Below are positions 8,987-10,699 of a DNA stretch of 64,000 bases, piece by piece; within the stretch, counting starts at the first letter, position 1; every line of letters begins with the position of its first letter. Source of the stretch: Halorhabdus sp. BNX81 (lineage in GTDB: Archaea > Halobacteriota > Halobacteria > Halobacteriales > Haloarculaceae); the NCBI RefSeq assembly GCF_029229925.1, contig NZ_CP107254.1, positions 744,001 through 808,000 on the forward strand. Direction: 5' to 3'. The position numbers were made by a program, and so were the translations under genes. The notes under the pieces were generated by a model. It was not told where the DNA came from and did no database searches. It saw only the letters and a list, made by a program, of their open reading frames with translations.

Positions 8987-9238
8987 ACAGCGTGAAAGCC
9001 CCGAGCCGTTCGAGTCGGGGGACCGCGACTGCGCTCCTCACTACGTTCCGGTGCTTATCGGGTCCGCCTTCCCCGAACGACTCGCCCCTTTCAGTCCCAC
9101 CCACGTCTCCTGGTTGAGAAGCCTATACGGGTGGGACTGAAAGGGGCCGGGCACTCGTCGAGCGAGAACCCGCAAGCACGCCGTAGGCGCGCGCAGCGCG
9201 GTTCGCAGCCGGCGAGTGCCCGGGGGCTTTCACGCTGT
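8987..9238. repeat. 252-bp nested palindromic element (possible non-autonomous transposon)
   Basis: The 460-base gap between genes holds a highly structured block. Its outer ends are perfect 16-bp inverted repeats (8987-9002 and 9223-9238, core GCGTGAAAGCCCC). Inside are an 18-bp perfect inverted repeat (9085-9102 and 9129-9146, core TTTCAGTCCCACC) around a 26-base loop, and a 10-bp pair (9148-9157 and 9213-9222, core GGGCACTCG). No ORF fits. Such nested palindromes are typical of MITE-like or IS200/IS605-derived elements; which of these applies is an inference. The flanks 8872-8986 and 9239-9331 hold nothing else recognised. Confidence 0.6.
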
Positions 9239-9331: not shown

Positions 9332-10699
9332 ATGACCACCGCCGAGTATGACGCTGTCGTCGTGGGAGCCGGCGTTTCCGGTTGCTACGCGGCGGCGACC
9401 ATGGCCGAGGAGGGCCTCGACGTGGTGATCGTCGAGCGCAAGTCCGAATCGGAGGCCGGCCACATCGCATGTGGGGACGCACTCAAGGGAGCTAGCAACT
9501 TCCCCGAGGCGATCCCACGCTCGCAGATCGAACCGTCGATCACCAACTCGGTCGTCGACCACGGCCACTTCGAACTACCGAGTGAGGGCACCGCCGTCGA
9601 CATCCCCGTCCCGGGTGAACTCGCCGTCATCGACCGCCTGCAGTTCGGCAAGTTACTCATCGAAGGGGCAGAAGACGCGGGCGTAACCTTCCACTACGAC
9701 ACCGTCGTCAACACGGTGCTCCAGGACGGCGCGCGCGTCACCGGGCTCGAGGCGATCCGCAAGGGCGATCCGGTCACCTACGAGGCCCCGGTCGTGATCG
9801 ACGCCGCCGGCGCGCTGTCGATCCTCCAGGACGAGGCCGATCTCGCCGACGCGACCTTCGACACCAACGTCACCTACTCACAGTTCAGCTCCGGGTATCG
9901 GGAGATCATAGAGGTCGAGGAACCCGTCGAGTGGCACGACGCGCTGGTGCTCAAACCCACCGAGCGATCGGCGGGCTATCTCTGGTACTTCCCGCGGACG
10001 GAGACGGAGATCAACGTCGGGCTGGGCTTTCAGATGGGCGAGGAACCGATGGAACTCGTCGACGCACTCCGCCGGGACATCGAGAACCGCGCGGAGTTCA
10101 AAAACGCCACTGTCAAGGACAAACTCGGCGCGGCGATCCCGACTCGGCGGCCCTACGACTCCGCGACGGCCCCCGGGTTCATGGCGATCGGGGACGCCGC
10201 AGCCCACGTCAACCCGACCACCGGCGGCGGGATCGCCGGCGCGGCCTACGCCGGGAAGTACGCTGCTGACCAGGCCATCGAGGCCGTCGAGGACGGCGAT
10301 CCCTCCGAGGCAACGCTGTGGCGGTACAACGAGCGCGTCATGGAGCACTTCGGCGGCCGCTACGCCGCCCTGGACGTTTTTTTCAAGCAGAAGACGGCAT
10401 ACGAGATCGACGACCTGACGGGCATGCTTGCGAGCCTCCCGATGACGAAACTCTCCGAGGCGCTGTACTCGGGCTCGGCCGACCTGAGCTGGTCGCTGAA
10501 GCTCAAGACGGCCCTCAAGAGTCGTGGCCACTGGGGCACGATTCTGGACCTCTATCGAACCAAACGCCACGCCGACGAACTCCTCGAGCACTACGAGGCA
10601 TATCCGGAGTCACCGAGTGGCTTCGAGGCCTGGCAGGATCGGCGTGACGACCTCATCCAGGACGTCTACGAGACGACCGGGGCCGAGGCGAAGTACTGA
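9332..10699 (+). CDS. Geranylgeranyl reductase family flavoprotein, containing an adapter-derived segment
   Basis: A 455-residue FAD enzyme of the geranylgeranyl/digeranylgeranylglycerophospholipid reductase family, which saturates isoprenoid chains of archaeal lipids. It has the dinucleotide fold VVVGAGVSGCYAA (residues 9-21), ERKSESEAG after the second strand, and the family signature FMAIGDAAAHVNPTTGGGI with a second FAD contact. Residues 350-359 (FFKQKTAYEI) are not native: they translate an exact sequencing-adapter sequence at 10377-10407. The frame is kept, so the true protein probably has about ten other residues here. Everything outside that patch reads normally. It could also be a halocarboxylate-type oxidoreductase of the same fold. 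Confidence 0.85.
   Translation: MTTAEYDAVVVGAGVSGCYAAATMAEEGLDVVIVERKSESEAGHIACGDALKGASNFPEAIPRSQIEPSITNSVVDHGHFELPSEGTAVDIPVPGELAVIDRLQFGKLLIEGAEDAGVTFHYDTVVNTVLQDGARVTGLEAIRKGDPVTYEAPVVIDAAGALSILQDEADLADATFDTNVTYSQFSSGYREIIEVEEPVEWHDALVLKPTERSAGYLWYFPRTETEINVGLGFQMGEEPMELVDALRRDIENRAEFKNATVKDKLGAAIPTRRPYDSATAPGFMAIGDAAAHVNPTTGGGIAGAAYAGKYAADQAIEAVEDGDPSEATLWRYNERVMEHFGGRYAALDVFFKQKTAYEIDDLTGMLASLPMTKLSEALYSGSADLSWSLKLKTALKSRGHWGTILDLYRTKRHADELLEHYEAYPESPSGFEAWQDRRDDLIQDVYETTGAEAKY
10377..10407 (+). other. Illumina P7 flow-cell oligonucleotide sequence (assembly artefact)
   Basis: Seven T residues are followed at 10384-10407 by all 24 bases of the Illumina P7 oligonucleotide (starting CAAGCAGAAG, ending ACGAGAT). 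The grafted flow-cell form of P7 carries a 5' T tail, which matches as well. The encoded FFKQKTAYEI peptide is a familiar adapter-contamination signature in protein databases. The native bases here are missing or replaced. Confidence 0.95.

Follow-up and report, generated by a model that had tools for sequence, protein, structure and literature searches.

An exact Illumina P7 sequence in a haloarchaeal reductase gene, most probably a length-neutral mispriming artefact

Introduction

How does a complete Illumina flow-cell oligonucleotide come to lie inside an open haloarchaeal gene, and has it been added to that gene or has it taken the place of something? The question is raised by positions 10377-10407 of a 64,000-nucleotide stretch of the Halorhabdus sp. 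BNX81 genome (the window), which fall within a gene of the geranylgeranyl reductase family. Synthetic Illumina sequence in microbial assemblies has been described before, in the form of a 12-base piece of the TruSeq universal adapter that is concentrated at contig ends (Moeller et al., 2024; PMC11536531). Mispriming is also on record from library preparation, where an account of HITS-CLIP libraries is reported to describe a primer that settles on partly matching endogenous sequence and produces false read ends (PMC4858895). Here we compare the window with related genomes and with other public records carrying the same oligonucleotide, and weigh the explanations for its presence.

Results

The host gene and its P7 sequence

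As published, with the artefact included, the gene at 9332-10699 on the forward strand is an open frame encoding 455 amino acids of a geranylgeranyl reductase family FAD-dependent oxidoreductase. The product scores 230.6 bits against the TIGR02032 profile, above the curated cutoff of 158.8 as members of the family do, and it matches FAD-binding Pfam families. Its score against NF041080, the equivalog profile for digeranylgeranylglycerophospholipid reductase, is 258.6 bits, below the cutoff of 580; the artefact is not the cause of this low score, because the clean relatives also fall below the cutoff, at 266.3 and 262.0 bits. A second reductase paralogue, 57% identical, is encoded in the same genome (G000:C1:1609276-1610640), and the same is true of several other haloarchaea. 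Just upstream of the gene, imperfect inverted repeats are clustered at 8987-9238 of the window (arms 9059-9102/9129-9172 and 9138-9170/9200-9232, with a perfect 16-mer at 8987-9002/9223-9238), and a comparison of this cluster with Rfam gave no match.

Read directly from the forward strand, positions 10377-10407 are TTTTTTTCAAGCAGAAGACGGCATACGAGAT, that is, seven T bases (10377-10383) followed by the complete P7 oligonucleotide, CAAGCAGAAGACGGCATACGAGAT, which matches at 24 of 24 bases (10384-10407). The initial annotation had placed exactly this sequence inside the reductase gene, and the string FFKQKTAYEI that it gave as the encoded peptide is a correct translation. When the window was searched for P7 with up to three mismatches, this was the one match, and none of 100 dinucleotide-preserving shuffles contained any. 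Across the whole genome, a single contig of 2,828,981 bases (~2.83 Mb), it is the sole copy at up to two mismatches, and at the same threshold P7 is absent from six other genomes of the genus.

Replacement of native bases

Homologues of the reductase were collected from named genomes and from a set of 97 genomes of the same and related groups, and 65 of these homologues cover the site. Their alignment across it contains no gaps. The two closest relatives, G006 (97% protein identity) and G004 (95%), both have 455 residues, as does the window's product, and the distance from flank to flank is 70 bases in all three. Where both relatives encode DVYNIFTTAYEIDDL, the window encodes DVFFKQKTAYEIDDL, such that YNIFT at residues 350-354 has become FFKQK; the Tyr and Asn at positions 350 and 351, present in 65 of 65 homologues, are both lost.

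At the DNA level the site departs from the closest relatives by 10-11 mismatches in 18 bases. The rest of the gene has about 1-1.4 over the same length, and no other 18-base stretch exceeds 6. Comparison of DNA and protein marks out a certainly non-native tract at 10378-10392 on the forward strand, in which 11 positions differ from both relatives and which alters residues 350-354. Within the T-run, the bases at 10377 and 10379 are shared with the closest relatives, while 10378 and 10380-10383 are foreign. Base 10399, where the relatives have the codon GCC and the window has GCA, may be foreign as well.

The strain's own native sequence is estimated here from relatives at 91-94% DNA identity. 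By this comparison, the event is a same-length replacement of native bases with nothing inserted, and the artificial part of the protein is confined to five residues (350-354), TAYEI being native because both closest relatives encode it at that place. The reading frame was kept because each foreign base took the place of a native one, and not through a lucky insertion length. These results separate what was sound in the initial annotation from what was not. The sequencing-adapter origin and the assembly artefact that it proposed are borne out by the exact P7 match, by the lack of any counterpart of FFKQK among the 65 homologues and by the absence of P7 from the six congeneric genomes, and the alignment to homologues that it recommended reveals the difference at residues that are invariant elsewhere. 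The frame is intact as it stated, though through replacement and not in the setting of an insertion; the gene, unchanged in length against all 65 homologues, has gained no adapter bases, and the estimate of about ten artificial residues has to be halved.

A P7-like site in the relatives

The last 15 bases of P7 in the window (10393-10407, forward strand) overlie what appears, from the orthologous sequence of the relatives, to be a native P7-like priming site. The orthologous site reads GACGGCCTACGAGAT in G004, agreeing with the 3' end of P7 at 14 of 15 bases, and GACCGCCTACGAGAT in G006, agreeing at 13 of 15. In the G004 genome it is the only site within one mismatch of these 15 bases, the other 15 listed having two; in G006 it is among 17 sites that carry two mismatches, and the best P7-like site lies elsewhere. 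The window's own genome has no other site within one mismatch, and its other 14 sites at two mismatches retain their own sequence. Judging from the relatives, the strain's native site would by chance have shared 14 or 15 of its 15 bases with the 3' end of P7, and the artefact probably sits at what was the most P7-like site of the genome, as a priming event would.

Occurrence in other records

A search of E. coli genomes, phages, plasmids and viral contigs for the 31-base string showed that P7 occurs there in two forms. In the common kind, P7 leads into an index and then into TruSeq or Nextera sequence (116 of 124 copies in one scan), mostly close to contig ends; in the rare kind, no such sequence accompanies P7, and the next base is already native DNA. 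Each copy of the rare kind with an alignable relative has identical length and a P7-like native site (7/7, including the window), in a set that is not random, having been chosen where relatives were likely to exist. Besides the window, six unrelated records have length-neutral P7: it was found in Vibrio phage D65 (compared with D68), in haloarchaeon G304 (L214) and in Klebsiella phage Marfa (L103), as well as in the katG gene of Shinella, a P2-like tail sheath gene of E. coli and a Klebsiella phage-plasmid, in which last three the native site matches P7 with small gaps. Records with such a replacement are NZ_CP157243.1 (L190), CP132317.1 (L205), OZ195765.1 (L206) together with ten further Vibrio phage records, and NZ_CP117742.1 (L211). 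For each native site, no more than 15 of 40,000 random 24-mers from T4 or MG1655 DNA attained its 3'-anchored gapped score; control 24-mers drawn from the window include the artefact itself, and the upper end of that control was disregarded.

Several of these length-neutral copies lie inside annotated genes, namely those for a tail sheath, KatG, a DUF1983 tail protein and a phage hypothetical protein, and the deposited proteins are probably wrong at the replaced positions. Among 391 haloarchaeal genomes, four contain P7: in the window's genome, G304 and G370 it has no index, and in G251 it comes with ordinary Nextera adapters. Proteus phage Saba (L236) and haloarchaeon G370 (L212) also have P7 without an index, and are kept outside the 7/7 count as having no usable DNA relative; three more records (L072, L078 and L123) have internal P7 without an index. 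All five probably belong to the same class as the window's P7. In addition, P7 is present in several Salmonella enterica plasmids of ~94 kb and ~59 kb (H50-H55, H64-H67, H71); its coordinate is often identical between them, which suggests a recurrent mispriming site.

Other candidates were rejected as parallels. In L191-L193, L195, L201-L204 and L237, P7 is followed by index-length sequence and TruSeq or Nextera sequence, intact or degraded; these are complete E. coli and phage genomes that have indexed adapters embedded at joins within the sequence, the flanks being duplicated in some of them. L194, in kdpA, has a partial P7 that shifts the frame and brings extra length.

Discussion

Origin of the P7 sequence

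Directly after the GAGAT that ends P7, the native sequence of the gene resumes, with neither index nor read-primer sequence between them. Over the whole genome, the TruSeq 13-mer is absent, as are the Nextera mosaic end at up to two mismatches and P5 at up to three. Library-adapter read-through would leave an adjoining index with read primer, and an altered length or a duplicated segment where the sequences join; neither mark was found at the site. A P7-like native site without index or read primer points to mispriming by the P7 oligonucleotide combined with base-by-base replacement in the consensus. We therefore consider, with a probability of roughly 0.88, that this is an assembly artefact in which the flow-cell P7 oligonucleotide primed wrongly from a genomic site that resembled it by chance, and a short-read consensus or polishing step overwrote the contig.

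What follows is our inferred course of the priming and consensus steps. During cluster generation, the grafted P7 oligonucleotide would anneal to the look-alike site within a genomic insert and be extended, and the new strand and its cluster would then carry P7 and, at the very end, the oligonucleotide's T linker in place of the true upstream DNA. Reads from such clusters would match perfectly downstream of the site and be wrong over some 15-25 bases, and a consensus from mapping or polishing would write those bases into the contig in place of the true ones, one position at a time, leaving the length equal and the frame intact. A letter-for-letter replacement is easily produced by polishing and hard to produce by joining contigs. 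The grafted flow-cell P7 oligonucleotide carries a T linker, and the seven T bases in the window are probably a remnant of this linker, which lies 5' of P7; T-runs of 8-11 at the equivalent place in the parallel cases fit the linker, the run of seven here being shorter. The initial annotation had supposed a read end or flow-cell chimera built into the contig, and a chimera does belong to the family of causes favoured here, whereas the arbitrary location and the inserted DNA that its version implied do not agree with the P7-like site and the unchanged length. The HITS-CLIP case concerns library preparation (PMC4858895), whereas here the primer was most likely the grafted flow-cell oligonucleotide and it is the consensus of a genome that was altered.

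Ordinary adapter contamination, in which read-through into the library adapter is chained into a contig at a join and adapter DNA is inserted, a reading close to that of the initial annotation, is the form most frequently met in public records, as the scan described above illustrates; embedded insertions, with broken flanks, are known from E. coli and T4-like phage records, and adapter at contig ends has been described (PMC11536531). For this locus we regard it as improbable, since there is no index or read primer, native DNA continues at the next base and the length of the site is unchanged, and since it would leave the P7-like native site as an unexplained coincidence. A shade less probable again is mispriming in the tube, where a PCR primer with a P7 tail, or one made of P7 alone, would anneal wrongly while the library is amplified and would likewise yield P7 at a look-alike site. 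In indexing primers, P7 forms the 5' part and the index and read-primer sequence come after it, and the 3' end of a P7-tailed primer is accordingly not P7; the short P7-only primer of some re-amplification steps is without the T linker, although base calls past the end of the template could mimic one. That the 31 bases are truly present in the genome of the organism is very improbable indeed, for although the gene has an open frame and the assembly consists of one contig, a sequence that agrees at 24/24 bases with a synthetic oligonucleotide, together with its T-run, has no natural source, it removes two invariant residues, and P7 occurs in 0 of 6 other genomes of the genus.

Implications for deposited genomes and for the reductase

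The case described here has something in common with the contamination reported by Moeller et al. (2024; PMC11536531), in that both concern synthetic Illumina sequence within deposited microbial genomes, including those of isolates. The two differ in that the reported sequence is TruSeq and is concentrated at contig ends, whereas here only P7 is present; it is internal, leaves the length unchanged and occupies a site whose native sequence resembled it, in a genome where the TruSeq screen is negative. A partial search of the literature returned no description of the length-neutral P7 form, which is weak evidence of novelty, and within the same partial coverage neither the peptide signature nor the T-linker-plus-P7 sequence was found in papers. 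On balance, though with a good deal of reserve, we lean towards regarding length-neutral P7 mispriming as a distinct, recurrent and largely unlisted class of error in finished genomes, one that strikes the most P7-like sites, preserves reading frames and escapes screens directed at adapters on contig ends or at TruSeq and Nextera sequence.

An error that preserves both length and frame passes checks for frameshifts, completeness and contig ends, and yet alters invariant residues of deposited proteins. The comparison made here provides a screening rule that is usable in any collection, in which an internal P7 without an index is compared with a P7-like site in a relative, and the same rule suggests beforehand the likely positions of such errors in a genome.

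For the organism itself, the biological interest of 10377-10407 is low, the residues being a laboratory artefact. Where a YN(I/V)xx block is conserved, the published copy of this TIGR02032 reductase has FFKQK, and FFKQK should be taken neither as divergence nor as a new motif.
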